The notes beneath the pieces are model-generated. The model searched no databases, had not been told where the DNA came from, and worked only from the letters and a program-made list of their open reading frames with translations. From IMG/VR virus record IMGVR_UViG_3300025687_000326, positions 1 to 23,939 of that record: DNA of 23,939 nucleotides; one strand, written 5' to 3'. This DNA comes from a virus. Positions 2,498-22,038 of this stretch are shown piece by piece. Position 1 is the stretch's first letter, and each line of letters starts with the position of its first letter. The position numbers were made by a program, and so were the translations under genes.

Positions 2498-2675
2498 TCA
2501 GATGTTTCTAATTCGCAGAATCCTTCTGCGTGCCATAAGGGCACACTGTGGGGTAATTGCGGTGGCAGGAACTACAATAGTCTTTTTAGGACCTAGCCAC
2601 ACGCGCTGAGTGCCTGTAGGGTAGGCAACGTTGATCTCGAAAGCCTGTAGGCTGTCGTTAGTAATAGACTTCATA
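2498..2675 (-). pseudogene. Small virion-type protein of 58 aa, reading frame broken by one extra base
   Basis: From the ATG at 2675, which has a good ribosome-binding site (GGAGA, 6 bases upstream), the frame reads MKSITNDSLQAF and then runs into nonsense, stopping after 28 codons. If one T is removed from the run of four T (plus-strand AAAA at 2640-2643), the frame continues as FEINVAYPTGTQRVWLG, then KKTIVVPATAITP and ends ALMARRRILRIRNI at 2498, exactly one ribosome-binding-site distance before gp18. The restored 58-aa product looks like the small beta-rich proteins often encoded beside tail genes in large T4-like phages. Function is unknown. The break may be a sequencing or assembly indel, a true mutation, or +1 recoding (UUU followed by the slow codon CGA, with tRNA-Phe able to re-pair on UUC). 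An indel seems most likely. The length (178 bases) is not a multiple of three, which shows the frame problem directly. Confidence 0.6.
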
Positions 2676-2710: not shown

Positions 2711-2727
2711 GCTTTAGGGAATATATT

Positions 2728-5700: not shown

Positions 5701-6804
5701 GGCAGCAAAGAAGAACAACTTCATAGCTGCTAGGTGTCTCTTGACAGATGCCTTGGCTACACCGTGAGCCATATGTCTCTTAGCGTTGATACCCTCACAC
5801 CAATCACCTGAACCATACTGTGCATTGTAGCAGGCATACTTGAACACCTTCCACATCATCTGGTAATCCGAGATGCTATAGGCTGATGAAGTATCGTGAG
5901 TCTGCCACTGTCTAATAGCAGTGTTGTATAGAATGTTAGCCAGTTGCTCAAAGGTGAAGGAATCTTTATCAAAAGTCCTTACTGCCTTGGTCAAGTAGTT
6001 GATTATAAAAGTGGTAGAGGGAGTGCTTCTTGTGATAGAATAGCTGGAGCAGTCCACTCCGCTAACGACCTCTCCATCGCACTCCACTTCGTAAGGTTCT
6101 GTTACATAGATAGTGGGGACTGTCGTGGCGTTGAAGGCTAGCTCGGCACTGTAAGGCAGTGCACTAAGGCCCTCAGTAACCTTGGTCTTGAAGTTAGACC
6201 AGACATCAGCATCATAAGACCCAGTGCCTTGGCCGAAGGGCAGGGCACGATAGCCAGGGTGAGTGGCACAGTGGACAGTAAACCCATCTGATCCAGCAGG
6301 GTTAGCCAAAGTTCCTCCATAGGTTCCTATGCCTACCACTAGAGTATCACCATCAGACAGTGTAACTACGATAGAATCTGTAGCACGATCTTCGGTGTAA
6401 GTATCGGTAGGATCAATAAGCTCTCCATCACCAGAACTGTTGAGTGAGTTACCATAAGTATCACCTTCGTAACCACTGGAATCGACAGTGCTAGTAGCTA
6501 GCACACCAGAGGTGTAGTCCCATCCATTAGGGATAGTAAAGTTGTCGTTGGTGAATGGTAAACTGCCGAAGGGACGAGAGATAATCTTATACATAAGCAT
6601 CTCTCCCCTTGCAGCAGCTTCATTCAACCTGTCTCCTAAAACATCAGGATCAAAGCTAAGTGTGTATCGTCCAGGGGTAACCCAACCCCCTTGTGACACA
6701 TCACCACTGATCCCTGGCTTGAACATACTGACACCAGGGTCAGCAGCCTCGATCTTTACACCGAGTCCATTTAGCTTAGATACTTGATGATATAGGATAT
6801 TCAT
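2728..6804 (-). CDS. Large multidomain virion protein of 1358 aa with C-terminal beta-helix
   Basis: I do not recognise a named gene. Domains by eye: residues 1-270 unassigned, beta-rich; about 280-560 helical, rich in Trp, Met and Phe; about 568-668 fibronectin-III-like (GVTLTWTDELDRDYEVYQVS and later GTYRYVVRATSP); about 684-782 a W module (GISWDLSN, GVFVDGSPWVLGP, then GGSSVISTVS and GILTVVSA); about 784-1050 a helical FRP module starting GDFRPAPYAG, with DLLLNPMVQQCIDMVGSY and VLLKRFQGL; about 1102-1330 a right-handed beta-helix with repeated short turns such as VIVRGCTIYGIKGNGLNIG. The W, FRP and beta-helix series also ends the neighbouring 4410-aa protein. I infer a fibre, appendage or receptor-binding/glycan-active virion protein. 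No signal peptide or membrane segment is evident. The start at 6804 follows the stop of the giant gene after 2 bases, with AGGA six bases upstream, so it is probably co-translated. It sits where T4 has terminase genes. Confidence 0.85.
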   Translation of the reverse strand: MNILYHQVSKLNGLGVKIEAADPGVSMFKPGISGDVSQGGWVTPGRYTLSFDPDVLGDRLNEAAARGEMLMYKIISRPFGSLPFTNDNFTIPNGWDYTSGVLATSTVDSSGYEGDTYGNSLNSSGDGELIDPTDTYTEDRATDSIVVTLSDGDTLVVGIGTYGGTLANPAGSDGFTVHCATHPGYRALPFGQGTGSYDADVWSNFKTKVTEGLSALPYSAELAFNATTVPTIYVTEPYEVECDGEVVSGVDCSSYSITRSTPSTTFIINYLTKAVRTFDKDSFTFEQLANILYNTAIRQWQTHDTSSAYSISDYQMMWKVFKYACYNAQYGSGDWCEGINAKRHMAHGVAKASVKRHLAAMKLFFFAAVMDATSAPVGTYTPAFEGLWKMASVAQTMRASYPSVISYGRFNQGSNLTPSGDTYNWVSGITTDNVGPTGRAFIPMYADKEYRQAGMAIKLWFAKLLGMELPTDIEQFLHVPQNGVAITDPWGVSNSRFGHISSPNGLGSCWSDEHNLLTSEAMQWLWMTGEYDHTSMMQWFTKNINFYAPYRIASLSGMPMAFKLMSNSVSGVQNLQSADDGSGVTLTWTDELDRDYEVYQVSVVSSYEGATHPDNDLVYGSFKGDYKLVATTSDLSARIAVPGDGTYRYVVRATSPIKSRNTEILTHVVSGSTGWEGSSVTDSRSGISWDLSNTGTVGVFVDGSPWVLGPAIITGSNADADVVDLEVGQAQPFDPRGDNYDGSAAATWPLTLSGGSSVISTVSGVSGVSDMGILTVVSAIPHRGDFRPAPYAGAVNLQLNTSDVSTSTFASSIDSSGDMFLSPNSTRVETYSYRLDDVWYYGDSDVSAQARRKPRPRQMPRNSTDAAIVFHEAALLLHSSDADKDLLLNPMVQQCIDMVGSYESAAAAGARPNPVVARSAGVLLKRFQGLSGSYLPAASGTLLDSRVYLIDTADDRSFSGTTIAGVSASGVRSVSGDAIGWTVDNTTSTYAGSMEGETLTEYEGFDQESALEAERGDTRWAAAETLSMMLFGDAEADYGNDVALAYGHQNASRPVVRGGRTMGELASPFMRQSFDSLQAVFTSGVTAADSGLPPMGSIPGPNTLQASGTHLLRNVIDQPGYYSNFRVNGTVHIRANDVHLYGGNIDARNENHCIEGGGFSGLRVENCNLTGSTKAAINADSVIVRGCTIYGIKGNGLNIGGHGSLVEANYFDDIATVGDGDYYGVVVNEGSDISIEWNYFNTPYDANGSKVKNCVRIRPAQGNVQDVTVSGNWFRGGTGPAIRVGAYPSAGYTISGIQIVANRFSQESGTTEAWSIAAPIAAGVTTNDNKWWNPQTNSVVRDVIDDPDYSAPGSPSPA

Positions 6805-6806
6805 AA

Positions 6807-8672
6807 TCAGTCCTCACACTGGCAGCGATCACGGCTGGTGTATGGCTTTCTTAAATAGGCAGGGAACACGTTGGTTCCAGTAACTCCACTAGTCCTGTCG
6901 GGGTGGTAGAAGGTGTCTTGGTAGATAGTGTAGTCATCCTCATCCCCCTTCTGCTCCCTGTTCAGAACATTGATAACGCTGACGTTGTTACCTACAACAG
7001 GGTTACCTGCGATGAAATCCTCGATAGAGAAGGCAGGGTTAATAGTCCCATACACATTAGTGCCATCGTTCATCCTGATGTTCTGACATGTCTGACCAGT
7101 CTCAATGTCGATGAACTTGTTGTTGCCGTCAGTGAAGATCTGCTTGGAGTCGAAGTTGTCCTCGCAGGCATCCATCCCAGTCCAGCCGTTGGCGTCAGTG
7201 TAGCCTGCTGCTCTAAGCTCATCACAGGAGGAGAGAACAGAGGTGGACTGGGCCGTGCTAATGGCCTGAGGATCAATGTCTAGCACAACCTCATGAGGAA
7301 TGGATAGGTTCTGATCTGAATGTAGCTGCCACATTGCACTCTTGTTAGCGTTGCCAAACGTGCAGGATGAGAAGTGCCACTCAGTAGGACCATCATTGTA
7401 GAGGGTTCCCCAGTTGACGTTATAGCCAACGTTTTGGGTGCATCTAGTTACGTTATAGTATCTGGTATCATACTGCTCGTATCCAGGGGAACCAGCAGGG
7501 TCGTTACCACCACCAGGGTAGAGAGGCGTGCTAGGATCAGGGCATCCATTGATAGACCATAGACCATCTCTGATCTGATACTTACCGTTGTGAACGCTGT
7601 GGTAGCTAGAGCCTGCTCCCATGAAGTTACATCTATCAAAGATGATTTTCTTCATCTTAGCAGTAATGCCGTTGACCTGTAGGTTCTTGTCCTGCATACG
7701 CTCTAGAATTGTAGCTGAGGTAGAGACAGGAGGTGCAGGGTATCCGTCCACAGTCATGGCAGATAGATGAGTTTCGTCATCGTGCCATAGTGGTGAGTAT
7801 CTAGCAGCAGTGTTGAGAACCCAGCGGTAGTTCCAAGCTGGATCGTTCTTGGGGTTCCATAGTGATGGGTTAATTGCGAAGGTGCATTTAGTTAGCCTGA
7901 ACTCTTCGAACTGAGTGCTCACAATCTGATAGCTATCGCAGTGAACCTCATCACCCTCGGGCCATGACCACCCATAAGCAAACTGACCACACTGAGTGTA
8001 GTGCAAGGGCTTGCAGTTCTCTACATCGTATCCGTTGTAAGTGCTCTGCTCTGAGCAGTCGAACAGCCAGGGACTATCCGTAGGGTTGCACGATGCCATA
8101 CCACGGACGTGAGAGCTATCTCCCCACCAGCATTCCTCGAAGTGGTAAGGCTCTTGACCTGCACCATACGTTCCTACTGGCATCATGTTGACAGCGTCAG
8201 CGGTATACCAGTCGAAGTTCACGCGCTTTAGAGTCCTGACAGGTGCGCTAATGATCTTAGATGCAGTTCCACGGAAGCTACTCCATAGGATGTGAAGGTT
8301 GTCAATACTGTCAGAGCTTGCAGCCTGAGCCTTGGATATCGTATACTTACACCCACCGTTCTGAGTGGACTTCCCAAGATCAGCAGTCTTTACAGTGCCG
8401 CCGTTGTCTGAGTAGCGCTGGAAGAAGTGAGTCTGACCGATGAACAGACAGTCCACGAAGGACAGGTCGTAGTTCATATCGTTGTCGATCTGAATCAGTC
8501 TGTTGTTCTGGTAGCTGTCAACTGATGAGAAGACAACAGCACTAACAATCATACCCTCGGGTGGAACCTCAATACAGTCTGTGTAACCTGCACAGTCACC
8601 TTGTCTTGCGAAGGTAAAGCAGGCATCACCTGTAGTGGGGACAGAGCTTACGGTCATGTCTCCGAGTGAGGT
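6807..8672 (-). other. Domain: cysteine-rich right-handed beta-helix, C-terminus of giant protein
   Basis: Residues about 3790-4410 show the alternating short-strand pattern of parallel beta-helices, with lines such as LSFVDCLFIGQTHFFQRY, VNFDWYTADAVNMM, YHFEECWWGD, FRLTKCTFAINPS and WHFSSCTFGNAN. I count 21 cysteines, often in the form x-x-C-x-F at the end of a strand, which in such folds can stack as an internal ladder. The protein ends RCQCED. Beta-helices are usual in phage receptor-binding and depolymerase proteins; which of these applies here is not visible. Confidence 0.6.
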
Positions 8673-11600
8673 TCTGTGACCAGTGTTGGCTCCATTGATT
8701 ACCGCGTCAGGGTTAGTAACACTATCGTCAATGGCTGGTGGGTATAGCTCACCGTTACCTTCTGATCCAATTCCAGGGTAGAAGGGGTTGCTACCTACCT
8801 CACCTTGGCTAGGCCCACCTGTTCCTCCAGGCGCAGGAGGCTCGGGGAAGGTCACACCTAGCGCCTCGCTGAGGTTAGCGTAGGGAGTGACAGGAGTGAC
8901 GCTACCTCTACCACTCTCTGCGTTAGAGATATAATTGTGAGTGTCAGAAGAAAGGTCGTAGTCGTAGCCTACTAGAGGACGCCATAGGTCATACAGCAGT
9001 GCGTTAGCCATACGAGTCTGCCCAGGAGTGCTGTCAGTTCCTAGCCAAGGAAGAACCTTGGGGCTGCGCTTGGCTACAGCATTGTCAACGTAAGGGTAGT
9101 CCTGAATAAGAAGAGCAGCCTTATCAGTGTGATCGAAGAACTCGTTGAAGCGATACTTATCCATCATGTTCATGGCACGCCATCCGATGGCAATACCATA
9201 ACGCTGCTTGGATGTCTGGACCATATACTTAGGGTTCTGAACGTCAGCAGTCAGGCCCCTGGTCGTGTCGCCACGGTAGGGAGGCCATCCCCACTGAGTC
9301 CACTGAGTCACAAGAGCGTGGTCATCCTCGAAGGGCATACCCTGAATGTTGTCGCTTCCGTTACCTGCTGCCTCTAGACCATCAGTAGGTGTATACTGAC
9401 CAACGTCGAAGCCTATCTGATAGGTTCTACATTCACCAGAGGTAGTGGCGTCTGCGGCTGGGTTCTCGGACTGGCAGACGTAGAAGTTAGCCTCGTCAAT
9501 GTCATTAATTCTAGAGATCTGTCTGTTCTCAGAGAAGTGCTTGGGGTTAAGACTATCAATCTCCTCATCGAAGATGAGACGCTTGAGTAGGATGGGAGTG
9601 TAGCGACCATTGCTGTGGTCACCGTTAGGTAGCCACTTCTGACCGTTGCGATAGAGTGCGTCTAGGTCAATGGCATACTGCATGAACCAGATAAGGAGGG
9701 CACGCTTATGCTCACGGGGGATGTCGCTGTTCAGAGCCACCATCACATCGTCAACGAGGCTCATCACTCCACCTACTCCACCGTAGTTACTTCCCTGTCT
9801 CTTTGCACCAAAGCGCTGACCAATTACATAGAAGTAATCAGTAGCAGCCATGTTGTTCGAGGTAACTCTACTAATACCTCCTGCGTAACGATACTGATAC
9901 TTTCTTCCGTCAGGGAGAAGGTAGTAGTAATCCTCTGGGTTGGGGACCCCGGTCACTCCATCGGTCGTGTAGCCCATTGGGTAAGGCGTCATGAACGTGT
10001 CGTAATCAAAGGTATACATATTGTTCTGTAGCGTGAGAGGTAGGTTAGCAAACTTACCTGCATCAAGCCAAGCATCAACAGAAGAGGTGTGGTAGGTAGG
10101 AACCTTCTGTGCCTCATTACCTGCGCGTGCTAGGTGGACAGAGGGACGGAAGTATCCAGTAGCCCCAGTGACAGGAGGAGAGTCTACCACGGGAGGAGTG
10201 ATAGCTCCACCGAACTCTTCGTCCTCTAGCTCAGGAAGTAGCTGTAGGATATACTGAGATACCTCAGTCATCATCTCCCAGGTTCCATCGCCAGATAGGT
10301 TGACGTTGGGGATGTCAGGGAAATACTTACCGTGAAGGTTGGTGGGGTTACCATCCTTGTCAAGGATTGGAGAGTTGTCGTTGTTGAAGTAGTTCTTGTA
10401 TGCGTAAGGCCAGAAGTCTGCAACAGGACCAGCAGAGATAATCTTAACATCAGCAGGTGTCCAAGGTGCAGTAGCTGCATCGAGAGGAACGCACTTCCAG
10501 GTGTGGTTATACCAGATGAATCCATCAGCACCAGCGTTGACGCAGGATAGAACTAGATCCTTCTGCTCCTGAACTGTTGGCCTATCCCAGTGGTAGTATG
10601 CCATAAGGCCACCAGCAGTAGGATCAGGGTTATTAGTGTCAGATGCTAGACCAGACACGAAGTTAGGAGTAGCAGCTAAGGTCACATAGACTGGCTTGCC
10701 CTCAGGGAAGTCGTCACTAGTAGACCAGTCCTTGATACGGTGCACACCAGAGACAACCCACTTAGGATCATCTACAATGTAGGTTCCGTTGGAGACTGGG
10801 TTGGTGTAGACAGAGGGGGGATCGTCGTTGTCTGCTCCGCTTCTTCCAGTTGGCTTGGAGTTGAATGGATAGTAGTCGAAGAGGAATCCATCAATCTCTG
10901 GGATGCTAGCGATAGCGGAGAAGTAAGATAGCTGATCCTCGTAGAGTCCGAACTCAGGGTCAGTCCAACCAGGACGAAGTCGTCCATCAACACCGTTCCA
11001 TCCAGCAACGCATACGCCTTTAGAGTAGAAGTAGTATAGCTTCTGCTCTGGGTAGGCTGCCTTGAAGTCTCTAGCTGCTTGAGCGATAGCGTAAGCTCCA
11101 GGACCGTGGCCCCAGTCTACGTTCGTGTCACCAGTGTCACGCACCCAGTAAGCGTTGTCAGCAGGAATGTATTGGTTGCTGTATCCAGGGGCTACCTGCC
11201 ATAGGGGAGAGGTTCCAGCAGGAACGTTCTGGATTGCGCGGAACACCTGCATCCTACCATACATGGTCTCGTAGGGGTCGGTGTAATCAGACTGACGGTC
11301 GATCATGAAGACCTTGTCGCCAGTGTTGTAGGTTGCCTCACCGTCCCACATGGTCCACTTGCGAGTGCCATCAGTGTTAAGATCCCAGGGAGAGATACCA
11401 ACACCAGCTAGCTCAGGCTCATGTCCAAGCATCCAGTATTTGGGCTCAACGGTATCACCGTCTGCGTCCACACCAGTGTAGGGAATGGGCCAGTCATCGT
11501 GGGCGAATCCAACCCACCTGTAAGATACAGGGGTTCCATCCTCTAGAGGAGTTCCAGTAACTGCATCACCATGGAGCTTGTTGAAGGAGGAGGGACGGTC

Positions 11601-14600
11601 AGGATCATCAGAGCTAAGACCAAAGGATCTAACACCGATAAACTCCATGCCATCATCAAGCATACTCTGATACTCACCAGCGGTGTAGGGAGGATCGTAA
11701 GGAGGGGTCTGCTTGGAGTGGTTCTTCCAGCGGAGTGCCATCTTGACACCGATGCTGTTAAGATCTTGCCACACGTTCAGTCCCTGGTTGTTTCCGTTTA
11801 CATCCTTTATCCACTTGGTCTTTGGAGTATACCAAGTGCCAAGGCGGCTGGGGAGCATAGCCTCACGGTAGACAGTTGAGATACCTCCACCACCAGATCC
11901 GCCACCAGTGTTGGACCCACCGCTGTTGTAACCAGCAGGTGCTTCCTCAAGAACCGTAAGAGGCTCAATGAGTAGGTTTGTAGATCTGTCAGAGGACCCT
12001 AGGATAGTCTTAGCAGACTGCTGCCAAGGTGCTTTGCCTAGCTCGTAGTCGGAACGAACAAGTTGACCATCCATGTATACCTCTGCCATCTCGGTGCTTC
12101 CAGGCCAGTAAGGCCCCTCCTGGTGAGTCCACGATGAGTTCAGAGTGTCACCTACCGCTAGAGTGATGGGGTTGCTCTGGCTAACCTGCTGTCCGTTGGG
12201 GAAGCCTGCGTTAAGAGAGTGGTCGTATGGAATTCTTCCTGATGTGTATTGAATCTCGTAGTTGACGTAGCCCTGAGTTCTGTAAGGCTGCACGACATTG
12301 CTGTCGAACGTCATAGCCGATACATCCACAGTGAAGTCGTCATCAGTGGAGTCAGTTCTCTCATGACCAGTTAGCTCACCCTGTGTAGTTGGGGTGGCTG
12401 GGTTGATCATAGATCCGTGAATGTATCCCATGTTGGGATCGTTGGTAGGACGTGGGAAGATGTCGATCACATTGACAGGACCAACTACCCACCAGTCACC
12501 AGTTACGAACTGACCAGCCTCAACTTGTCTATCGAAATACCAAGTGACGCCAGAGTCGGTGGTAATCTCAGTGACCTGTGAACCAGTGCCACCATTACCT
12601 CCACCGCCGCCACCAGTGCCTCCAGTGTTGTCAGGGACGTGACCGTCAATCAGTTGAACGACACAAGCAGAGGTGTCGCTAACCACTGAGTCAGTGCCAC
12701 TGTCAGCAGTGAGGTAGAATCTAGAAACCTGAGTTCCCTGATCACCCGTAGCACTGGTCATAAGAAGCTCAATGCTAAAGTCTGTTTCACCAGCAGCAAG
12801 AGTAATGTCCTTAGTGTTACCAGTGAATCCAACAGCAGTTAGACGTGTCTCTGCTGCTGGGATGTTTGCGCTTACAGTTAGAGTGGTGCTGCTAGCTAGT
12901 GGCTTGGTGTAGCTTCCTTCAAGGGTAATAATCTTGTTGTCAGCATCCTCATTCTCTACAACAGCAGTGTTAGTCCAACGAGCGCGTGCAGGTTGAGTAA
13001 CAGTGGTGACACCTAGGTCAGCATCAGGACCAGCATAGAAGTTATCATACACATCCTGTGCTGAGAAGACATCATCATAGAAGCTGAGTCTATAGAAGTC
13101 TCCATCAAACTGTCTTGCAGTGGCCTGACTAGCAGGCTGTTTCTCATCACCGATTGTAATCTCTGCACCTGCTACCCAGTCTTGTGGCTGGCGTCCAAGT
13201 TGTCTAACTAGAGGAGCGTCAGTGTTGCTAACGTGCTGGTTGATAACAGATCCGCCATCACAGAATGTGTTAACCCACCCGCTGGCGTTTAGACCCTCAA
13301 TACTTAGGACAATGTGATGTAGTTTATCCTGCTTGAGATAGTGCTGGGGTGCAGTAGGAGCAGCATACTTACCTACGGTTCCTGTCTGCATACCAAGAGC
13401 ACCGTGGTAGTCAGTAGCATTACCCCACTTGCTCTGAGTTAGAGAAACGTTGCGGGCTCCTGTTGGAGTAGCAGCGTCAGTCCATGACATAATACGGGCA
13501 GGACCTTCGTTGGTTATGTCGTGTGAGCGAACCCAAGCCTCGATAGTAACTGCGTTGTTACCAGCAGCAACGATAGCGTCACGGATCTGGTCTGCGTCAG
13601 CAGTTGGAATGGTAAGCATACCATCAGCAAGGGTGAGGAATTTAACACCATCAACCTCGTTGACAGTTACGACACCTTGTCCGCTATCAACAACAGATAG
13701 ACCAGAGACAAGGTCCTCCATGACACCACCGCTAAGGATGAAGTCTGCGATAACACCAGTGGTCTTCTTAGTGGTCTCTGGGAAACCTACGCCTCCACCA
13801 GCACCAGTGGCCTCTGCGAAGTAGGCAGCACCGTGAGGAGTAGCCTTGACCTCATCGTAGTTGGGAGGTCTCTTAGGATCGTAGGTTAGGTTCCAGTCTA
13901 GATGGATACACTCACCAGCCCAGCCAGCCATGTGAGCGCCCATAGGATCAACCATAGTGGGAGGCTCGATGGTGCTGTTCTGAGTGATGGAGTAGTAGTC
14001 CTGTGCAGCACCCCACTGCCATAGACGGGCAGCGTTGGCTGGTGTGGTTGGGACAAGGGAGGTGTAAGTCCCTGCGTTGATATGATCACACTCGACATAG
14101 TTATCGTTCTGGGTCAGTGGGTTCCAGCTAGCATCCCAGTCACAGTTAGTCCACTGGTCGAACATCTGCTGGGCTCCCCAGAGCAAGAAGCGGCGGTCAC
14201 CAGTCATGCGGTAGGCAATACCTTGGTGTAGTGCGTCACGGATAGGACGGTGACCAGTTACAAACCAAGACGTAACGGTGCTGTTAGGCCATGACCAGGG
14301 AACGAAGTCCATGGCGGGCTTGAAGGTTCCGTTGACACCGCCTGCACCAGTGATAAGACCAGTCTGTGGGCAGTAGAACTCACGGTTATTATCATCAATG
14401 GCACGCCAGAACTCAGTGTCGGTGTTACTCCAGGCACTAAGGTCAGGAGACATAAGCTCACGACGACGGTCAGTCCACTGCCACTGACGTAGTGGTAGGT
14501 AGGCAGTGGTTGTGAGGATGGCGTTACCTAGGTTTCCTAGGTTTCCAGGCTCCACGCCCTCGAAGGCTACAGCACAACCAAAGATACCGTGTGCGAAGTA

Positions 14601-17600
14601 GATGTAAGAAGTGATTGCCTGGGTGTGGGTAAGGTATCCACCTCCAGTGCCCACTGTAAGGTTGCCTGCACCACGACGACGCCCTTCTTCGAGGAGGAAG
14701 TTGGCATCATCTAGGTCAAGGATATCCTGAACACCAGACAGTCCACTCTCTAGGTAGCATAGCTCCTGCCAAGTGCTGTCCCACTGAGAGGCTCCAAGGC
14801 TGCCGTCGTTAGCGTAGCTCTGGAGTCCATCGTTGCTACGAGAGATACCTAGTGGGAAGATGACTGCCTTAGTAGCATCTACAAGTGTAGGTAGCCACTC
14901 AGACTTTAGCTTGGCACGCTTAGTCTCGTCGCCAAGAACACTGAAAGCCATACCGATAGAATCAAGGGGCTCCCCCTGAGCGCGGTTAGTGTGCTGGGAG
15001 CCTACTGAACTGTTGATACGATGGGTTCCGTTGTCTGCGAGATACTTGAGGTTCAGTCTCTTGTATGCATCACGTCCCTTCTGCTGATAGGTGGTGCCCT
15101 GGTGGACGTAGTCACCCATGGTGTCATACTGGCTGTGGCAGTGGCGCACGAAGGCAGCGTCCTGCTGCATGTAATGCTTAACTGGACCCATGTTGCCGAA
15201 CCAGATAGGTGCCTGGGTCATGAAGGTGAAGCGCCAGTGATGCTCACCATCGGTGGACATGAACTGATCAACGCTAGTGGTGTAGCCATCACTGAACATG
15301 ATCTTCATCTTCGAGCGCTCTGTGGCACCAACACTCTGATCAACGTGAGCGTATGTAGTAGGAAGACCTGCTGCTGGTGCGTTCCAGAAGCGGTTGGTTG
15401 GAGCTAGGGGTGGGTTAACCTCATGACCGTTGGTCATGCTAGCCTTAGTGGTTGGGTTAAGGTTACTGTCCTTGAGTGGACCCCAGAACCAGGGATGGTT
15501 ACCTGCCTTTGCAGCACCTCTCCAGGTGTCAAGCTGCCAGGGAAGGATGGGGACACCAGCGTTGTGGAAGTCTCCAGTAACCTTAGCGATCTGCTCAGGC
15601 TCAACGACCTTACCTTGAAGGTTGGTCATTGAGGTGCGTGCCCTGTGTGAGACATACTGTAGCTGCATCCAGCCAAGCTCGATATCCTCTGGGCACTGGC
15701 CGTATCCTACGCGAGGAACAATACCCTTGCCACCACCTTGTTGGATGGTCTTGTGCATGTAGGGACGGAACCAAGAGTTATACTTACGACGGTCTGTCTC
15801 GTCATCGAAGATCTTACCATAGGAGTATGCCTCCCAGCCAAGACCAGCGACTAGACCGCCTTCCTCAGGACCCTCATATTGGCTCTCCATCCTACAGGCA
15901 GAGCGCATTATGCGTAGGGTTCCAGTAGTTCTAGCACGGAAGACTTCACGGCCAGAGCCGAACTGGGCATACCATGCAACCTCTACATCATCTCTAGCTG
16001 CTGCGTTAGCGCTGTCGATGCTGGGTAGGTAGTCCTGCTGGGAACCATAGCCACGCTTGGCTTGATAGTTGTTGCCAAGTGGCTTATCACCATCAAAGGC
16101 TAGTGGGTAAGAGATGCCGTAGCCACCGAAGCGGTTAAGGTATACAGCAAGTGCGCGACCCTGGTTGTTGAGTCTACCAATTACAGTCTTGCGGTATAGT
16201 CTAGCCTGCTTGGGTAGAGGCTGTAGAATGGTGTTGCCCCTAGTGACTGAGGTCTGAACTGCGTCAGGGTTGGCACTGTTAAGAGGGCGAACTAGCCATC
16301 CGTTTACTGAGTCGATGCTAGGATCGGTGGGGATGATGTCAACGTTTCCACCATTGTTGGTCCACTGGCTACCCTCAAAGCAGCCGAAGCCAGCAGGAGA
16401 GTTTACCTTGATACCATAGAACCAAACCTCTCCGTTGACCTCAGGGTGATCTGCTCCACGATCACCGATAGTATCATCGAACACATCGTTGGCGATCTTG
16501 AAGGTAATCTCTGCCACGTTTACGTCAGAGCGCTGAGTAATCCATGCGTGAACACCTAGGACCTTAGGTGAGTAGCCAGTAGGAGCAGTGTATCCAGCAG
16601 GGTAGATATCAAACTGTGCGAAGCGATGCTCTTCCTTAATGTATGCACCAGAGCGAACAGTCTCTACGAGATCCCAGTTGGTGATCTTCTTAGTCTTAAC
16701 CTCTACTGCCTGAGAGCCATCATCTAGCCAGAGGCTAAGGTCTAGCTCTGATAGGTTTACTTCTGTAAGCGTCTGGGTGGGAGAGCCTGGAGATGTAACC
16801 TGCTCTAGGATACCGCTACCAGCAATGCTGTTAGCAGTAAGGGCAAGGTCTACACTCTCAAAGACATAAGAGGTGTCGGCTGGTCCAACAACCTGAACAG
16901 TTCTTACCTTACCATCGTGGTCATAGCTAACAGGGAATACGTCAGCGTGGTTGCCGTCGATAGTGAAGAAGGGGAGAGCAGTTGGAACTACAGGGTCGAT
17001 GGGAACCACGGTCTGTAGGAGTAGATCAAACTGACCAGTGGCGAACTGTAGTGGACCAGTAGCGTTGCGAGTAGCTAGGTAGCTCTGTCCTGGAACTCTG
17101 TGGACGATTTGTGATGGAGCGCCCTGGGCTACCCCTGGATCCACTGGCTCGTCAGGACAGACTACAGTGCGAGCAACTTGGTCTGCTCCGTCTAGAACAA
17201 CAAGATCATTTCCTGCGATCTCACCAGCAGATAGAGTAAGGTTGAAGTCCTGATATGTTCCAGGCTCAACAGTGATGGTTCCAGTTGCAGTGGTTGCGTG
17301 GGCGGGGACAGTGATGACTGGAAGAGTTACCTCTCCACCTACGAATGCCTCGCGCCATGTTCTAATGAATCCGAACTCAGCGTCAGCAGATACAGCATGA
17401 TCTAGGTTGATGGTAACAGTAATGTCGTGACCAGTAGTATCATCCACAAACACAGAGGTAGTGTCGATGTCCCAGTCCATTCCAGTAGCTACATCGTCAT
17501 CATTGATGGTAATGTAGTCGTAGTTAGCGTTACCTTGAGTAGGAATAGTAGCTGCGTGGCTGGTAGAGTTAGCATCGTAGATGCCAACCTTGAATAGTCT

Positions 17601-20039
17601 CTTGGTGGATAGTCCTCCAGGAGCGATGTTGGGCTGAGTGCTGTTGTCCGTGGTGTCACCAGAGACATGTAGCTCGTAGGAGAAGGAGGCTTGTCCTGCA
17701 CCAATAGGGATGGTAATGGTGCTAGTCTGTAGACCATGAGTAAAGGTTACACGGGGGTCAGAGAAGCTGTTACCACCACCAATGTCGTAAGGAACACAGC
17801 AAAGTGTGACATCACCACCGACAGGCATGACAGGATCAACAGTGCCATTGAAGGTATAGGTTCCTCCATCCCACTCGTTTACATCAAAGCTTATTGTTCC
17901 AGCGTTGTCAAGGGTTACGAAGCTGTTGGTTATGGGAGCGCCACCAACGTTGAAGCTAACCTGTGAAGTGCCAGCAAAGGAAGCAAAGGCGGTAGAGCCT
18001 GCGTCCACTGCACCATCTACGGTTGCAGCACCACCAGAGGATCCACCAGCGATGACTACGTCGAAGGCTACACGGTCAGATCCAGCACGGATAAGGGCAG
18101 TTGCTGGGCCTGCAAGGTCGGCAGCGATAGCACCTCCGTAGGTGAGGTTGATGGTAGTATCCTGTGGGACTGTGCGATCACCACGGATCTCAAGGGAGAC
18201 AGTGTCACCTGCGTCGGCCTGGACAGCAGCGACAGTGAAGCCTAGGTTGGCTGGAATGTCGTTATCCGTAACGAAGATGTCAGCAGTAACCTGTGCGCCT
18301 AGTGCTGGGGTGGAGATGTTGTTGGTTACAGTTGGCGCAACAGACAGCAAGGTCCACGTCTCTAGCTCAGAGGTAGTGGTAGTGTCTGTGTCAGGAATGA
18401 TACCTGTCCAAGTGTAAGTAGTCACGCCAGCAGGCATGATAATCTCTTGCTCGTAACCCTCTGCTGCTAGGCCAGGGAAACGATCCTCGGGGAACTTTAC
18501 AGTAAGTGCAAGCTCCTCAGGAAGGGCGACATCTGCAACGAAGGTAAGGTCGAAAGCACCGCCCTCAGTAGCATCACCAGTGATGCCATCGAACTGAACT
18601 TCAACAGGGTTGCCATCACCGTTGGTGGTGAAGGTTACAGTGTCGTCAGTGGGTAGGGAGAGTGCCCCTCCAGCAATCACGTTGCCTGCGACCTCTAGCG
18701 TGCGGCTGGGGAATGCGTTGGATAGAACTATGATCTGACCTCCAGTGGCCTGAGTAGCATAAGCGGGAACTGTTACACGGTCACCTGCCCAGTCGAAGTC
18801 TATGCCCTCTACTGCATCTCCACCAGTCTTAGATAGCTGAACAGTAATGTCCTGAGACACACCACGGCTAAGGGTTACAGTGAAGACAGCGTCGTCACCC
18901 TCTCCAAGAATATTACCATCCTCAGGTGAGGTAAGAACAGTGACAGCAGGAGTCTCATCATCTAGAATGGTAAGGGTCTTAGTAGTAAGGGATCCTAGTT
19001 CTGCGGTGAATGCTCCAGTAGAGTTAGGAGAGAAGTCAGTGATTGTAAATACGTAAGTTGCATCACCTTGGTCACCAGGAGCATCAATGATTGAGACAGG
19101 AAGCTCGACGCTAGAGCGGTTAGCGGGAACTGAAACAGTAAAAGTGCTTAGTAGTTGCTCACCAGTAGCTGTGTTCTTTAGGCGAACGTCAGGTGCAGGA
19201 GAGCAAGTAAGAGTTAAGGTGGCAGCAGTAGGAATGGATTGGTTGAATACTACATTCATACCTGCGTTACCACCTAGCCACTCCTGCCTAAGCAGAGGAG
19301 CGGAAGAGAAGAACTGGGCCGTGTATGTGGTAGGCTCTTGTGTTGCAGTTACCGCTACGTTGAAGGTATAAAGACCTACAGCATTGCCTGACTGAACCTG
19401 AACAGTAATTGTGGCAGTTCCTTGAGCGTAAGGGCTAAGGACCGTCATGTCTAGGACAGCGGATAGGGAACCAGCACCAGTGGCGTTTCCAGGGATGGTG
19501 ACAGTAGCAGGAACACTAATGTCGTCTAATCCTAGACCGTTACTAGTAACAACAGTAGTAGCAATTACGATATCCTCAGAGGTAAATCGGCTGAGGAGAA
19601 GATCAAGCGTTGCAGGGTTGTCGTAGTCTAAAACAGATGGAAGCTGTCCAATGGTGAAATCAGCAGTAACCTCGTCATCGACAATGGTAACCTCTAAGGC
19701 AGCATCAGTAGAGATAGAGGTTGGCACAGAGCCTCCACCTACTTCAAAGCTAATGATGGAGAGGTTAACAGCTAGGTCACCTTCCTCTTCTATAGTATCT
19801 GAGATATCTACTGGGATAAGGAAGTGATCTGAACCACCAGGAACATTGATAATAATGTCCGTAGTCTCGCTGTCGATCTGATTTACTTCGTCTCCTGGAG
19901 CAGCCTGGAAGGTGATGCGTTCATCAACTCCAACTGCTCTAATGGTTACTACACCGTCTTTATTGTCGGGTAGAGCGGGTGTAATAGATCCAGAGATGGC
20001 GTAGCTGCCATCCCACTCAAATAGGTTTACTTGTGCCAT
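6807..20039 (-). CDS. Giant 4410-aa mosaic virion protein (Calx-beta, LamG-like, glycosidase-like, beta-helix)
   Basis: One uninterrupted frame of about 13.2 kb; no named gene recognised. Domains by eye: residues 1-960, eight Calx-beta-like modules ending in acidic turns (VTIVDDE, ILDDE, VTDND, INDDD); 970-2090, a long region, first beta-rich and then helical and Trp-rich, of uncertain fold, possibly an alpha/alpha-toroid carbohydrate enzyme; 2095-2345, LamG/concanavalin-like (NAVTIEAWVRSHD, HHIVLSIEG, GDFYRLSFYDDVFS); 2348-2468, a ninth Calx-beta-like module; a Gly-rich linker; 2497-2704, W module (GVTWYFDRQVEAGQFVTGDW, then WVVGPV); a second Gly-rich linker; 2720-3275, possible TIM-barrel glycosidase-like region (IDGFLFDYYPF) with a CBM5/12-like insert near 2895-2955; 3293-3735, helical FRP module; 3790-4410, beta-helix with 21 cysteines. 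The start at 20039 has AAGGA seven bases upstream, 20 bases after gp15. I infer a neck or tail appendage that binds or cuts surface polysaccharide. The frame is certain; individual domain calls range from good (Calx-beta, LamG-like) to tentative (TIM barrel, 970-2090). Confidence 0.92.
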   Translation of the reverse strand: MAQVNLFEWDGSYAISGSITPALPDNKDGVVTIRAVGVDERITFQAAPGDEVNQIDSETTDIIINVPGGSDHFLIPVDISDTIEEEGDLAVNLSIISFEVGGGSVPTSISTDAALEVTIVDDEVTADFTIGQLPSVLDYDNPATLDLLLSRFTSEDIVIATTVVTSNGLGLDDISVPATVTIPGNATGAGSLSAVLDMTVLSPYAQGTATITVQVQSGNAVGLYTFNVAVTATQEPTTYTAQFFSSAPLLRQEWLGGNAGMNVVFNQSIPTAATLTLTCSPAPDVRLKNTATGEQLLSTFTVSVPANRSSVELPVSIIDAPGDQGDATYVFTITDFSPNSTGAFTAELGSLTTKTLTILDDETPAVTVLTSPEDGNILGEGDDAVFTVTLSRGVSQDITVQLSKTGGDAVEGIDFDWAGDRVTVPAYATQATGGQIIVLSNAFPSRTLEVAGNVIAGGALSLPTDDTVTFTTNGDGNPVEVQFDGITGDATEGGAFDLTFVADVALPEELALTVKFPEDRFPGLAAEGYEQEIIMPAGVTTYTWTGIIPDTDTTTTSELETWTLLSVAPTVTNNISTPALGAQVTADIFVTDNDIPANLGFTVAAVQADAGDTVSLEIRGDRTVPQDTTINLTYGGAIAADLAGPATALIRAGSDRVAFDVVIAGGSSGGAATVDGAVDAGSTAFASFAGTSQVSFNVGGAPITNSFVTLDNAGTISFDVNEWDGGTYTFNGTVDPVMPVGGDVTLCCVPYDIGGGNSFSDPRVTFTHGLQTSTITIPIGAGQASFSYELHVSGDTTDNSTQPNIAPGGLSTKRLFKVGIYDANSTSHAATIPTQGNANYDYITINDDDVATGMDWDIDTTSVFVDDTTGHDITVTINLDHAVSADAEFGFIRTWREAFVGGEVTLPVITVPAHATTATGTITVEPGTYQDFNLTLSAGEIAGNDLVVLDGADQVARTVVCPDEPVDPGVAQGAPSQIVHRVPGQSYLATRNATGPLQFATGQFDLLLQTVVPIDPVVPTALPFFTIDGNHADVFPVSYDHDGKVRTVQVVGPADTSYVFESVDLALTANSIAGSGILEQVTSPGSPTQTLTEVNLSELDLSLWLDDGSQAVEVKTKKITNWDLVETVRSGAYIKEEHRFAQFDIYPAGYTAPTGYSPKVLGVHAWITQRSDVNVAEITFKIANDVFDDTIGDRGADHPEVNGEVWFYGIKVNSPAGFGCFEGSQWTNNGGNVDIIPTDPSIDSVNGWLVRPLNSANPDAVQTSVTRGNTILQPLPKQARLYRKTVIGRLNNQGRALAVYLNRFGGYGISYPLAFDGDKPLGNNYQAKRGYGSQQDYLPSIDSANAAARDDVEVAWYAQFGSGREVFRARTTGTLRIMRSACRMESQYEGPEEGGLVAGLGWEAYSYGKIFDDETDRRKYNSWFRPYMHKTIQQGGGKGIVPRVGYGQCPEDIELGWMQLQYVSHRARTSMTNLQGKVVEPEQIAKVTGDFHNAGVPILPWQLDTWRGAAKAGNHPWFWGPLKDSNLNPTTKASMTNGHEVNPPLAPTNRFWNAPAAGLPTTYAHVDQSVGATERSKMKIMFSDGYTTSVDQFMSTDGEHHWRFTFMTQAPIWFGNMGPVKHYMQQDAAFVRHCHSQYDTMGDYVHQGTTYQQKGRDAYKRLNLKYLADNGTHRINSSVGSQHTNRAQGEPLDSIGMAFSVLGDETKRAKLKSEWLPTLVDATKAVIFPLGISRSNDGLQSYANDGSLGASQWDSTWQELCYLESGLSGVQDILDLDDANFLLEEGRRRGAGNLTVGTGGGYLTHTQAITSYIYFAHGIFGCAVAFEGVEPGNLGNLGNAILTTTAYLPLRQWQWTDRRRELMSPDLSAWSNTDTEFWRAIDDNNREFYCPQTGLITGAGGVNGTFKPAMDFVPWSWPNSTVTSWFVTGHRPIRDALHQGIAYRMTGDRRFLLWGAQQMFDQWTNCDWDASWNPLTQNDNYVECDHINAGTYTSLVPTTPANAARLWQWGAAQDYYSITQNSTIEPPTMVDPMGAHMAGWAGECIHLDWNLTYDPKRPPNYDEVKATPHGAAYFAEATGAGGGVGFPETTKKTTGVIADFILSGGVMEDLVSGLSVVDSGQGVVTVNEVDGVKFLTLADGMLTIPTADADQIRDAIVAAGNNAVTIEAWVRSHDITNEGPARIMSWTDAATPTGARNVSLTQSKWGNATDYHGALGMQTGTVGKYAAPTAPQHYLKQDKLHHIVLSIEGLNASGWVNTFCDGGSVINQHVSNTDAPLVRQLGRQPQDWVAGAEITIGDEKQPASQATARQFDGDFYRLSFYDDVFSAQDVYDNFYAGPDADLGVTTVTQPARARWTNTAVVENEDADNKIITLEGSYTKPLASSTTLTVSANIPAAETRLTAVGFTGNTKDITLAAGETDFSIELLMTSATGDQGTQVSRFYLTADSGTDSVVSDTSACVVQLIDGHVPDNTGGTGGGGGGNGGTGSQVTEITTDSGVTWYFDRQVEAGQFVTGDWWVVGPVNVIDIFPRPTNDPNMGYIHGSMINPATPTTQGELTGHERTDSTDDDFTVDVSAMTFDSNVVQPYRTQGYVNYEIQYTSGRIPYDHSLNAGFPNGQQVSQSNPITLAVGDTLNSSWTHQEGPYWPGSTEMAEVYMDGQLVRSDYELGKAPWQQSAKTILGSSDRSTNLLIEPLTVLEEAPAGYNSGGSNTGGGSGGGGISTVYREAMLPSRLGTWYTPKTKWIKDVNGNNQGLNVWQDLNSIGVKMALRWKNHSKQTPPYDPPYTAGEYQSMLDDGMEFIGVRSFGLSSDDPDRPSSFNKLHGDAVTGTPLEDGTPVSYRWVGFAHDDWPIPYTGVDADGDTVEPKYWMLGHEPELAGVGISPWDLNTDGTRKWTMWDGEATYNTGDKVFMIDRQSDYTDPYETMYGRMQVFRAIQNVPAGTSPLWQVAPGYSNQYIPADNAYWVRDTGDTNVDWGHGPGAYAIAQAARDFKAAYPEQKLYYFYSKGVCVAGWNGVDGRLRPGWTDPEFGLYEDQLSYFSAIASIPEIDGFLFDYYPFNSKPTGRSGADNDDPPSVYTNPVSNGTYIVDDPKWVVSGVHRIKDWSTSDDFPEGKPVYVTLAATPNFVSGLASDTNNPDPTAGGLMAYYHWDRPTVQEQKDLVLSCVNAGADGFIWYNHTWKCVPLDAATAPWTPADVKIISAGPVADFWPYAYKNYFNNDNSPILDKDGNPTNLHGKYFPDIPNVNLSGDGTWEMMTEVSQYILQLLPELEDEEFGGAITPPVVDSPPVTGATGYFRPSVHLARAGNEAQKVPTYHTSSVDAWLDAGKFANLPLTLQNNMYTFDYDTFMTPYPMGYTTDGVTGVPNPEDYYYLLPDGRKYQYRYAGGISRVTSNNMAATDYFYVIGQRFGAKRQGSNYGGVGGVMSLVDDVMVALNSDIPREHKRALLIWFMQYAIDLDALYRNGQKWLPNGDHSNGRYTPILLKRLIFDEEIDSLNPKHFSENRQISRINDIDEANFYVCQSENPAADATTSGECRTYQIGFDVGQYTPTDGLEAAGNGSDNIQGMPFEDDHALVTQWTQWGWPPYRGDTTRGLTADVQNPKYMVQTSKQRYGIAIGWRAMNMMDKYRFNEFFDHTDKAALLIQDYPYVDNAVAKRSPKVLPWLGTDSTPGQTRMANALLYDLWRPLVGYDYDLSSDTHNYISNAESGRGSVTPVTPYANLSEALGVTFPEPPAPGGTGGPSQGEVGSNPFYPGIGSEGNGELYPPAIDDSVTNPDAVINGANTGHRTSLGDMTVSSVPTTGDACFTFARQGDCAGYTDCIEVPPEGMIVSAVVFSSVDSYQNNRLIQIDNDMNYDLSFVDCLFIGQTHFFQRYSDNGGTVKTADLGKSTQNGGCKYTISKAQAASSDSIDNLHILWSSFRGTASKIISAPVRTLKRVNFDWYTADAVNMMPVGTYGAGQEPYHFEECWWGDSSHVRGMASCNPTDSPWLFDCSEQSTYNGYDVENCKPLHYTQCGQFAYGWSWPEGDEVHCDSYQIVSTQFEEFRLTKCTFAINPSLWNPKNDPAWNYRWVLNTAARYSPLWHDDETHLSAMTVDGYPAPPVSTSATILERMQDKNLQVNGITAKMKKIIFDRCNFMGAGSSYHSVHNGKYQIRDGLWSINGCPDPSTPLYPGGGNDPAGSPGYEQYDTRYYNVTRCTQNVGYNVNWGTLYNDGPTEWHFSSCTFGNANKSAMWQLHSDQNLSIPHEVVLDIDPQAISTAQSTSVLSSCDELRAAGYTDANGWTGMDACEDNFDSKQIFTDGNNKFIDIETGQTCQNIRMNDGTNVYGTINPAFSIEDFIAGNPVVGNNVSVINVLNREQKGDEDDYTIYQDTFYHPDRTSGVTGTNVFPAYLRKPYTSRDRCQCED
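12636..12998 (-). other. Domain: isolated ninth Calx-beta-like module
   Basis: Residues about 2348-2468 of the giant protein repeat the pattern of its N-terminal modules: an acidic opening (VENEDADNKIITLEGSYT), strands TTLTVSANI and KDITLAAGETDFSIELLMT, then TGDQGTQVSRFYLTA. Module 3 has the similar APGDQGDATYVFTIT (residues about 320-335). It links the LamG-like domain to a Gly-rich linker (GGTGGGGGGNGGTG) and the W module. It looks like a spacer or Ca-binding joint. Confidence 0.5.
13005..13757 (-). other. Domain: LamG/concanavalin-like jelly roll in giant protein
   Basis: Residues about 2095-2345. The pattern is that of LamG-type lectin domains: a short strand before the domain (VIADFILSGGVMEDLVSG), the hallmark AVTIEAWVRSHD strand, LHHIVLSIEG with the usual His-His-Ile/Val core, an NTFCDGG turn, AEITIGDE, and the closing DGDFYRLSFYDDVFSAQDV. 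Such domains usually bind glycans or proteins. It separates the putative catalytic region from the second half of the protein. Confidence 0.65.
17162..20039 (-). repeat. Protein-level array of about eight Calx-beta-like modules
   Basis: The first 960 residues of the giant protein divide into modules of about 100-150 aa. Boundaries are marked by acidic turns: VTIVDDE (near 118), ILDDE (near 360), VTDNDIPA (near 592) and INDDDVA (near 848). Recurrent elements are VTVPAYATQ or ITVPAHATT type strands and ...GD..F.VTLSR openings. The opening of module 1 (EWDGSYAISGSITPALP) recurs in module 7 (EWDGGTYTFNGTVDPVMP, near 722), which suggests internal duplication. Calx-beta modules often bind calcium between neighbours and serve as rigid extensions in adhesins. 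The DNA copies are too diverged to be direct repeats. Confidence 0.7.
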
Positions 20040-20059: not shown

Positions 20060-21469
20060 TTAGTCCTCAGGGTAATAGGGACGATTGATTAGTTCTGATA
20101 TCGTAGGTTCTGTTCCATCAACAAGATCGTAGCGCGGGTCCCAGAACCAGACCTCCTCATTGTTGTCGGTGGGGTCACTGAAAAACCCTACTTGCAAAAA
20201 GTCAGTTATATCTGCTGCGCTATTGAAAGTGAACTCTCTGATTTCGGCCACGGCAGTTCCGTCTGCGGAGTAGATTTTAGACAGTCCCGTCGAAGCTCCC
20301 GTGTAGGTGTAAGGATGAATGTAAGAAACCGCCAGATACCACTCACCTACTTGAGCAAGGCCTGTCAAGCCCGCAAAGAAAATAACATCTATAGTAGATG
20401 ACCCCGGTGAAATCTCAGTGCGAGCCTGCTGCTGCGTAATACGGAGCCGCCCATCTGTGGCGTCTTGCACCTTGAACCAGACAGACCTGCGATAAGTTTT
20501 GGTCGGGTCTACCGCCATTGGAATTGGACTTTTGAACCCGCCATCGAATGAAACGGCACTCTCAATATTCTCTGCAACCCACACAACTGCGTTGTTGCCG
20601 TGGGGGTTAGTCAGCGTTTTGCGGGAGTCTTCTCCAGGAGCGCCTACAGGGGACCAGCCATTGACGCTTCCCGTTCCGACAGTCCAGTCGGTTTCTGGGT
20701 CGAGCAAGTTGGTGTAGTCTAAAGGTTCTCTAATAACCCTTTCAGTAATCTTATCACCAAGATCAACATCTACTGTGAACTTCTCAATCTTTCCACTGCT
20801 CGTCACTCTATATTCTGGGGATGGGATGTAGGTTTCAACTGTGATGTCAAAGTTACGTCTAAGCACACGATCTTCCCGATCCTGTGCATCAATCGAACCA
20901 TCATCCTCTTCCTGTGTCAGGTAAGCCTTGGTCAGATGAGACCAAGGAGTTTGTAATGTAATGTCTGGGTGGAACCTGCTGCGAATCTGCGCTGCAATCT
21001 GGTCCAGATCCCCAAGGTGCCTCGTCCATAGAGACAGTCTGTAGGTGAGCTTCACAGGCACGTCAGGTAAGGAGATGATGCGGACTGCTCTCTGAGTCTC
21101 ATCGTCCCACACGGAGCGTGCCAGGATGTTTAGTGAGGTCCTGTGCCTATCCGCGTCATTCTCTATAGCAGACTGGTAGATGGTAGAGTATGGGAGAATT
21201 AGGTTATTCTCTTGGAACATCTTGGCTACCAGCCTGTCCTGCCTACCATGGTGCATCTTTACATCAACCCTTTGTCCTTGATCGTTGATATAGGAAAGAG
21301 GGATCTGATGTAGAAGGGTTCGTAATAGCTCCTTGTAGTAGTCGTGCTTAAAGCTACTATCGTTCTCCATCATGGAGATTAGCTGGGACAGAAGCGTTCT
21401 AGAGCTTCGTCCTGAGTTTGTGTTGAAAGGAATACCTTCCCTGATCATGAAGTCTCTGATCTCACTCAT
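20060..21469 (-). CDS. gp15: Tail-sheath stabiliser/terminator gp15 with C-terminal lectin-like extension
   Basis: Residues 1-245 of this 469-aa protein match T4-type gp15 in pattern: RSSRTLLSQL near the start, a His-Gly-Arg-Gln segment (about 73-78), LTYRLSLWTRHLGDLDQIAA (about 141-160) and EDRVLRRNFDITVETYIPSP (about 199-218). gp15 caps the tail and joins it to the neck proteins gp13/gp14. T4 gp15 is 272 aa, so about 200 residues are extra. Residues about 250-455 look like a jelly-roll carbohydrate-binding domain (TDWTVGTGSVNGWSPVG, NAVVWVAEN, KTYRRSVWFKVQDA, EVWFWDPRYDLV). The extension uses AAA for Lys, CGC/CGG for Arg and GGC/GGG for Gly, whereas the N-terminal half uses AAG, AGA/AGG and GGT/GGA, a sign of later acquisition. 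The start overlaps the gp14 stop (ATGA). The gp15 call relies on pattern and gene order 13-14-15. Confidence 0.85.
   Translation of the reverse strand: MSEIRDFMIREGIPFNTNSGRSSRTLLSQLISMMENDSSFKHDYYKELLRTLLHQIPLSYINDQGQRVDVKMHHGRQDRLVAKMFQENNLILPYSTIYQSAIENDADRHRTSLNILARSVWDDETQRAVRIISLPDVPVKLTYRLSLWTRHLGDLDQIAAQIRSRFHPDITLQTPWSHLTKAYLTQEEDDGSIDAQDREDRVLRRNFDITVETYIPSPEYRVTSSGKIEKFTVDVDLGDKITERVIREPLDYTNLLDPETDWTVGTGSVNGWSPVGAPGEDSRKTLTNPHGNNAVVWVAENIESAVSFDGGFKSPIPMAVDPTKTYRRSVWFKVQDATDGRLRITQQQARTEISPGSSTIDVIFFAGLTGLAQVGEWYLAVSYIHPYTYTGASTGLSKIYSADGTAVAEIREFTFNSAADITDFLQVGFFSDPTDNNEEVWFWDPRYDLVDGTEPTISELINRPYYPED
20105..20722 (-). other. Domain: jelly-roll (CBM-like) extension of gp15 with foreign codon use
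   Basis: Codons for residues about 250-455 of gp15. The protein pattern (Trp-rich strands, SVWFKVQD, GEWYLAVSYIHPYT, VWFWDPRYDL at the end) resembles lectin or CBM jelly rolls that decorate virion proteins of other marine phages. The stretch contains no CTAG tetranucleotide by my scan, though the giant gene next to it has about one per 180-200 bases. It has AAA, GGG, GGC, CCG and CGG codons that are uncommon in the neighbouring sequence. Confidence 0.6.
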
Positions 21470-22038
21470 AGGTCATCGTATCCTCCAATGTCTCCACCGA
21501 CATCAGGAGCAACGTCGGTAATAGGTTCGTTAACAGTCTCCTCATCATCACGGAGGATCTTAGCTGTCACAACCGAGTGGTAAACGCCGTAAAGCTCGAA
21601 CGAATCTTCTTGAACCTCGACCACTTCGTAGCGTATGTTCTGGAACTGCGGCTTGATTTGATCACCAATCCTGGGCTCACGGTGAAGGGCTTTCTCAATG
21701 TAACTCTTATTAAATACAAACATCTGGTCATTGGTGATCTCAATCCCGAATTGGCTGAGTGTCTCTTCAACAACAGATGGCTCATAGAAACCGTGGACCT
21801 GAATAGGCTCGCTAGCAACGGTTCGGTTCCTTGCCTCTAGGTATACATCATCATAGTCCGACTCCACGTAGGACTTGTAATAGTTAAGAGGAGAACCTGT
21901 GATACGGATGATCTCATCATCAACCAAGTTGAATAGGTTTACATCAGGGTTGGTAGGATCAAAGAATGATAAAGGCGTAGCCCCCTGTAATTCAGGGAGT
22001 CCGTCCATCTGCCTCGTTACTTTGAACTTCCTATTCAT
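21466..22038 (-). CDS. gp14: Neck protein gp14 (head completion)
   Basis: This 190-aa protein has the T4-like/cyanophage gp14 signature: YYKSYVESDYDDVYLEARNR (about 53-72), FYEPSVVEETLSQFGIEITN (about 84-103) and a C-terminal VEVQEDSFELYGVYHSVVTA (about 139-158). gp14 acts with gp13 at the neck, sealing the filled head and providing the site for tail attachment. It is shorter than T4 gp14 (256 aa) but close to the cyanophage form. The ATG follows the gp13 stop after one base (TGATATG) with no clear Shine-Dalgarno sequence, so translation is probably coupled. Its stop overlaps the gp15 start. Confidence 0.88.
   Translation of the reverse strand: MNRKFKVTRQMDGLPELQGATPLSFFDPTNPDVNLFNLVDDEIIRITGSPLNYYKSYVESDYDDVYLEARNRTVASEPIQVHGFYEPSVVEETLSQFGIEITNDQMFVFNKSYIEKALHREPRIGDQIKPQFQNIRYEVVEVQEDSFELYGVYHSVVTAKILRDDEETVNEPITDVAPDVGGDIGGYDDL

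Follow-up and report, generated by a model that had tools for sequence, protein, structure and literature searches.

What a single gene of more than 13 kb is doing among the neck and tail genes of a contractile-tailed phage is the question raised by this locus. The window, that is, the whole stretch of DNA analyzed here, is the entire 23,939-bp record IMGVR_UViG_3300025687_000326, with nothing beyond its ends. Homologs of gp23, gp13/Ad2, gp15, gp18, and gp19 (the last a weak match) are present together as a T4-like structural module, and the source is an uncultured T4-like myovirus that probably falls within the Far-T4 group. According to the accessible part of their published description, in which no such giant gene is mentioned, Far-T4 phages are uncultured and T4-like; their gp23 is divergent, and structural genes lie close to that of the capsid (PMC4360716). 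On the minus strand of the window, the genes run in the order gp23, gp13, gp14, gp15, giant, P0002, 58-aa gene, gp18, and gp19:

23143..23937, minus strand: gp23 major capsid protein, C-terminal part (PF07068, E 6e-38)
22040..22909, minus strand: gp13 / head-tail adaptor Ad2, 289 aa (phrog_211, E 5e-24)
21466..22038, minus strand: gene in the gp14 position, 190 aa, assigned by position and by conservation in relatives, with no family match
20060..21469, minus strand: gp15 tail sheath stabilizer, 469 aa (PF16724, E 1.1e-9; phrog_227)
6807..20039, minus strand: the giant gene, 4410 aa, pI 4.5, one ATG-started frame with no internal stop
2728..6804, minus strand: P0002, 1358 aa, the co-inherited partner, with a right-handed beta-helix near its C-terminus; starts 2 bp after the giant's stop
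2498..2674, minus strand: 58-aa gene immediately preceding the sheath gene, a position it also has in 75 related loci
360..2489, minus strand: gp18 tail sheath, 709 aa (family matches)
3..353, minus strand: gp19 tail tube, start of the gene only (phrog_4542, E 0.0042; the full 197 aa are seen in the related locus L002)

The first-pass annotation of this DNA had described an unbroken 13.2-kb frame within the neck-tail cluster, filling over half of the window and encoding a protein of roughly 470 kDa. Both points hold: the frame comprises 4410 codons at 6807–20039 on the minus strand, or 55% of the window, and the computed mass is 478.5 kDa. The giant was also placed between gp15 and the tail genes, which is correct as to the neighbors, but P0002 and the conserved 58-aa gene separate it from gp18. 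The 58-aa gene in front of the sheath is below the usual size cut-off, hence was missed, and has no PHROG match.

The giant frame is also found intact elsewhere. The chance of 4410 consecutive sense codons is about (61/64)^4410, near e^-211. In L088 (IMGVR_UViG_3300005512_002377), which comes from another metagenome, the giant is a single 4420-aa frame, 90% identical and in the same gene order; comparison with the window copy gives a dN of 0.062, a dS of 0.40, and a dN/dS of about 0.16, and at the level of codon substitutions the giant is under purifying selection. The 67-kb contig IMGVR_UViG_3300007541_000018 (L090) encodes a 4392-aa homolog, colinear end to end with 32–39% identity, followed by a 1542-aa P0002 homolog and then by a sheath 71% identical to that of the window. 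A partial relative, L007, retains the C-terminal 1141 residues of a related giant together with a 1429-aa P0002 homolog. The giant-P0002 pair and its order are kept in four contigs (the window, L003, L090, and, in part, L007), so that the search for the same arrangement in other phage genomes, proposed in the first pass, does find the giant beside gp15, P0002, and the sheath in further contigs. The same annotation had worried about a chimeric assembly joint. We found nothing in favor of the giant being a chimera or a pseudogene, and against it stand the dN/dS of about 0.16 and an intact giant in three independent contigs; the full-length copies in two contigs other than the window exclude a chimera, and we regard the chance of an artifact as negligible.

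On the sheath tree, the carriers of the giant group together in one clade (99/96 support) with one change, a topology that suggests a single acquisition followed by vertical inheritance. Besides the window's, three homologs of the giant were found, none of them from a cultured phage, a small number that limits inference. The phage collection contains no homolog of the giant or of P0002, and scanning the genome contigs with two regional alignments returned no homolog. Compared whole and piecewise with Pfam, PHROGs, NCBIfam, and PDB sequences, the giant matches nothing beyond LamG. A PHROG/mycobacteriophage match at aa ~2489–2532 was set aside as uninformative, as it covers 43 residues only and adjoins a Gly-rich hinge.

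The site that the pair occupies varies among relatives. From 80 loci collected by their sheath gene, the spacing between gp15 and the 58-aa gene was measured in the 62 that show both genes; its median is 312 bp and its maximum 1.5 kb, compared with 17.4 kb in the window. The gaps between gp14 and gp15, between the 58-aa gene and the sheath, and between the sheath and the tube are all tight in relatives (less than ~65 bp), and the 58-aa gene marks the right border of the insertion slot. Most relatives are without the giant-P0002 pair. In L092, the same slot contains another large insertion (1340 + 767 + 271 aa), of which the 767-aa gene is similar to the N-terminal part of P0002 (23% identity). 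A second variable slot is located between gp13 and gp14, where the spacing is at least 300 bp in 9 of 33 relatives (e.g., L031 and L077), against a median of -1 bp. Terminase genes 16 and 17 are absent between gp15 and gp18, both in the window and in relatives; Phage C48C1, with the T4 gene order, has them there. We rejected the idea that the giant replaces the terminase genes, because relatives without the giant have no terminase-sized genes at this place either.

In cyanomyoviruses, the hyperplastic region contains host genes and is made up mostly of small and metabolic genes. Its location is g15–g18. The slot in the window differs in holding a pair of giant structural-type genes. The hyperplastic region of T4-like cyanomyoviruses (Millard et al. 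2009, cited in PMC6722890) is a variable insertion region that recombines. The variable slot of other T4-like phages can carry genes unrelated to the virion, and the giant might likewise encode a secreted or cell-surface protein, acting for example in superinfection exclusion or host-surface modification and located in the late operon by chance. We consider this very improbable, given the adhesin-type composition of the protein, the coupling of its gene to gp15 (20 bp) and to P0002 (2 bp from the giant's stop), and the fusion of gp15 in relatives to similar kinds of module. Both the giant and P0002 are presumably virion proteins.

Within the giant, the following regions can be distinguished:

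17130..20039, minus strand: aa 1–970, an array of two domain types in alternation, about eight domains in all; probable stalk (profile self-comparison)
13650..15992, minus strand: aa 1351–2130, rich in helices according to a low-confidence model (mean pLDDT 26), with no family match
13050..13565, minus strand: aa 2159–2330, LamG / concanavalin-like lectin, PF13385 (sub-cut-off profile match)
12630..13007, minus strand: aa 2345–2470, a further A-type domain (77% probability to the domain at aa 246–365)
12402..12623, minus strand: aa 2473–2546, Gly-rich hinge, then a strongly conserved W-F-x-GDWWVVGP module (conservation, profiles)
10440..11867, minus strand: aa 2725–3200, putative (beta/alpha)8 glycoside-hydrolase-like region (low-confidence model, conservation)

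In the N-terminal array, A domains begin at aa 1, 246, and 711, and B domains at aa 126, 366, 601, and 856 (hhalign probability up to 96%). This repeated array of unnamed domains in the first 970 residues bears out the spacer-like repeats seen in the first pass, but not their naming as Calx-beta: the window, L090, and L003 records, searched alone, give no PF03160 match at E ≤ 1. A LamG-like lectin, also anticipated, is supported at aa 2159–2330, where the Laminin_G_3 match lies just under the Pfam cut-off of 27.6 bits (27.2 bits, E 4.8e-6; the L090 homolog scores 27.6). The GDWWVVGP module is common to the giant and P0002, with a moderate profile probability of about 60%.

The region at aa 2725–3200 includes some of the best conserved stretches across the four sequences, among them W-M-L-x-H-E and LFDYYP, in which E2874 and D3055, respectively, are candidate catalytic residues. 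AlphaFold, run with 3–4 sequences, produced two models with mean pLDDT values of 26 and 29, which we used as hints only. In the low-confidence model of aa 2725–3200, strands and helices alternate, and TIM barrels, including several glycoside hydrolases, make up most of the top Foldseek matches in the PDB, none of which reaches E ≤ 0.001; a comparable low-confidence model of another region of the giant gives no TIM-barrel matches. The structure prediction and fold search that had been recommended for this protein yielded, in sum, two low-confidence models and no significant Foldseek match, although the TIM-barrel-like pattern serves as a hint. The same pattern, at aa ~2725–3200, lends weak support to the one or two possible carbohydrate-active regions named in the first pass. 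It is suggestive of a TIM-barrel enzyme region, and on such modeling the giant may have enzymatic activity. Searches of Pfam and NCBIfam, even at permissive thresholds, gave no CAZy-type match for the giant.

These features could also describe a polysaccharide depolymerase or lysis machine of the virion, with enzymatic attack on capsule or slime as the primary function and attachment as a secondary one. The TIM-barrel-like pattern with its conserved HE and LFDYYP motifs and the LamG domain are consistent with such a role, as are helix-rich regions whose length is typical of alpha/alpha-toroid lyases in low-confidence models. However, every structural hint comes from models of this kind and no CAZy-type family is matched, and we consider a primary depolymerase improbable.

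The beta-helix ascribed to the giant in the first-pass annotation is located elsewhere. The giant has no PF13229 match, and its motif count is no better than that of shuffles; judged by profile matches, the beta-helix belongs to P0002 instead. The only match of the window copy of P0002 is to phrog_2234, a tail spike (E 0.0017), while the L090 homolog matches PF13229 (E 3.9e-7, 30.3 bits, cut-off 25.9) and the L003 homolog remains below threshold for this family.

Synonymous divergence between the window and its nearest relative is uneven along the pair. Along the giant, dS is 0.04–0.7 up to aa 3750 and 1.1–2.9 from there to the end; it continues at 1.0–1.2 through the first 430 residues of P0002 and then falls to 0.3–0.5. 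The divergent stretch has two parts:

6810..8792, minus strand: giant aa 3750–4410, divergent C-terminal tract (660 aa)
5515..6804, minus strand: P0002 aa 1–430, second half of the divergent tract, continuous with the giant C-terminus

From these rates, a single tract across the giant/P0002 border appears to have been replaced. It would be natural, though it is unproven, that the tract spans the border because the giant C-terminus contacts the P0002 N-terminus, much as subunits of the T4 long tail fiber contact one another. The description of the giant as a mosaic fits this one tract with the divergence of a replaced segment, but not the gene as a whole, which is colinear throughout with a homolog of ~35% identity. 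In the giant interior (window 8800–18700, compared with L088), dS is mostly about 0.15–0.35, against 0.6–0.8 in gp15, sheath, and tube; the lower values suggest that close phages have recently exchanged the giant.

The position of the pair in the virion can be approached through gp15, which in T4 forms a ring at the top of the tail. In the window, gp15 carries an additional segment:

20063..20755, minus strand: gp15 aa 239–469, accessory module absent from the nearest relative's gp15 (239 aa)

Homologs of this 230-aa module are found in tail-fiber regions (26–29% identity, E 1e-5 to 2e-9). One is part of a 3347-aa product encoded by a 10-kb hypothetical gene in the tail-fiber region of Phage C48C1 (Kyanoviridae; L111:550-10593), and another lies in a virion structural protein of Vibrio phage F86, encoded beside long-tail-fiber genes. 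Fusions of other kinds occur among relatives. In L041 (1–4185), gp15 is preceded by a fused stretch of at least ~1150 aa that contains FN3 domains, the appendage being N-terminal to the gp15 ring domain; L062, L063, and L079 have N-terminal fusions of 137–256 aa; and L031 (6640–9489) has a 692-aa C-terminal extension that looks enzyme-like and has no family match. We infer that, in this group, such fusions bring sequence of appendage type to the neck or the top of the tail, and it is mainly because gp15 is fused to appendage-type sequence in relatives that we prefer a neck location for the giant, which would place it near the same ring. Profile comparisons gave no match for domains common to the giant and the gp15 fusions of L031 and L041, or to the giant and the baseplate-region proteins of L090 and L092. 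The giant shows no known neck-anchoring domain, and for T4 fibritin or the neck passage structure it has no Pfam, PHROG, NCBIfam, or PDB match.

Gene order is no proof of virion position, and tail fiber genes could occupy the gp15–gp18 site. The pair might be the main long tail fiber, with the giant forming the proximal part and P0002 the distal tip; as in T4, such a fiber would attach to the baseplate, and its genes would only happen to lie beside those of the neck. Its stalk-then-tip order resembles that of T4 genes 34–37, in which the stalk comes first and the tip after; P0002 has a tail-spike-like beta-helix; and the joint tract of giant C-terminus and P0002 N-terminus represents a type of exchange known for fibers. 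However, the baseplate cluster of L090, which encodes gp25- and gp6-type wedge proteins, is separate and is followed by large fiber-like genes (551–1450 aa) that are better candidates for baseplate fibers. They include, in the baseplate-side cluster of this 67-kb relative, a 1121-aa protein with beta-helix matches (L100:7977-11342, minus strand), a candidate baseplate tail spike. Because L090 has its own baseplate cluster with fiber-like genes, the giant-P0002 pair looks additional; its absence from most relatives argues that it is not an essential fiber of the group; and the fused modules sit on gp15, not on a baseplate protein. We therefore consider a baseplate-attached main fiber rather unlikely.

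The explanation we favor, at somewhat better than even confidence, is that the giant and P0002 form an accessory virion arm, anchored at the neck or upper tail, with an adhesive or glycan-processing role; the first pass had already suggested a neck or collar appendage, and the gp15 fusions of relatives strengthen that suggestion. The two genes would have been inserted as a pair into the variable slot between gp15 and the small pre-sheath gene, and their products would build a long arm anchored near the tail top or neck. The N-terminal domain array of the giant would serve as the stalk, while its middle would provide the LamG lectin and probably also a TIM-barrel-like domain that cleaves glycans. 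The two proteins would meet where the giant ends and P0002 begins, C-terminus to N-terminus, with the P0002 beta-helix as the outer tip. Such an arm could bind, and perhaps trim, polysaccharide of the host or of particles, either before the baseplate engages or during that step.

Arms at the neck are already known; what is unusual here is the size and position of the giant. The closest parallel is found in 936-group and TP901-1 lactococcal siphophages, whose neck passage structure is accessory and present only in part of the group; its proteins of 500–900 aa have a conserved BppU-like N-terminus, a coiled coil, and C-termini that vary and adopt carbohydrate-binding or beta-helix glycan-hydrolase-like folds, and binding to host cells was observed for one tested CBM (PMC6669499). 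The likeness lies in the accessory character, the place at the neck (proposed for the pair), and the carbohydrate-binding and beta-helix folds. In contrast, the giant and P0002 measure 4410 + 1358 aa, belong to a contractile-tailed phage, and have no sequence match to the neck passage structure. Among myoviruses, the collar whiskers of T4 fibritin (wac) and the collar spikes of Vibrio phage XM1 gp40 are neck appendages proposed to sense or aid attachment, and fibritin C-termini have been swapped (PMC3797505, PMC10491603); these, however, are small fibers, and neither the giant nor P0002 has a family match to them. The pair shares its tandem stalk and tip genes and its modular exchange with the T4 long tail fiber (gp34–gp37) and large T4-like fiber genes, and the 3347-aa fiber-region gene of Phage C48C1 has a module in common with the gp15 extension of the window. 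Unlike the giant, large T4-like fiber genes are encoded away from gp15–gp18, and the giant has no match there.

More tentatively, and short of what we would call probable, the pair may define a new class of neck-anchored arm of 4410 + 1358 aa, over 0.6 MDa each, with a lectin and at least one glycan-cleaving domain. It would stand beside the receptor-binding set of the baseplate, the phage engaging polysaccharide from the tail top, and in relatives the slot and the gp15 ring would form a general docking site for exchangeable appendages. The giant family itself (about 4400 aa, ~35% identity, almost no recognizable domain) represents unexplored candidate glycan-active proteins, and gp15 fusions provide a rule, open to testing, by which neck appendages could be sought in genomes. 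If the proposal is true, the neck ring of widespread aquatic contractile-tailed phages would be a modular platform on which very large adhesive or enzymatic arms dock, and the picture of host recognition by these uncultured phages would change.
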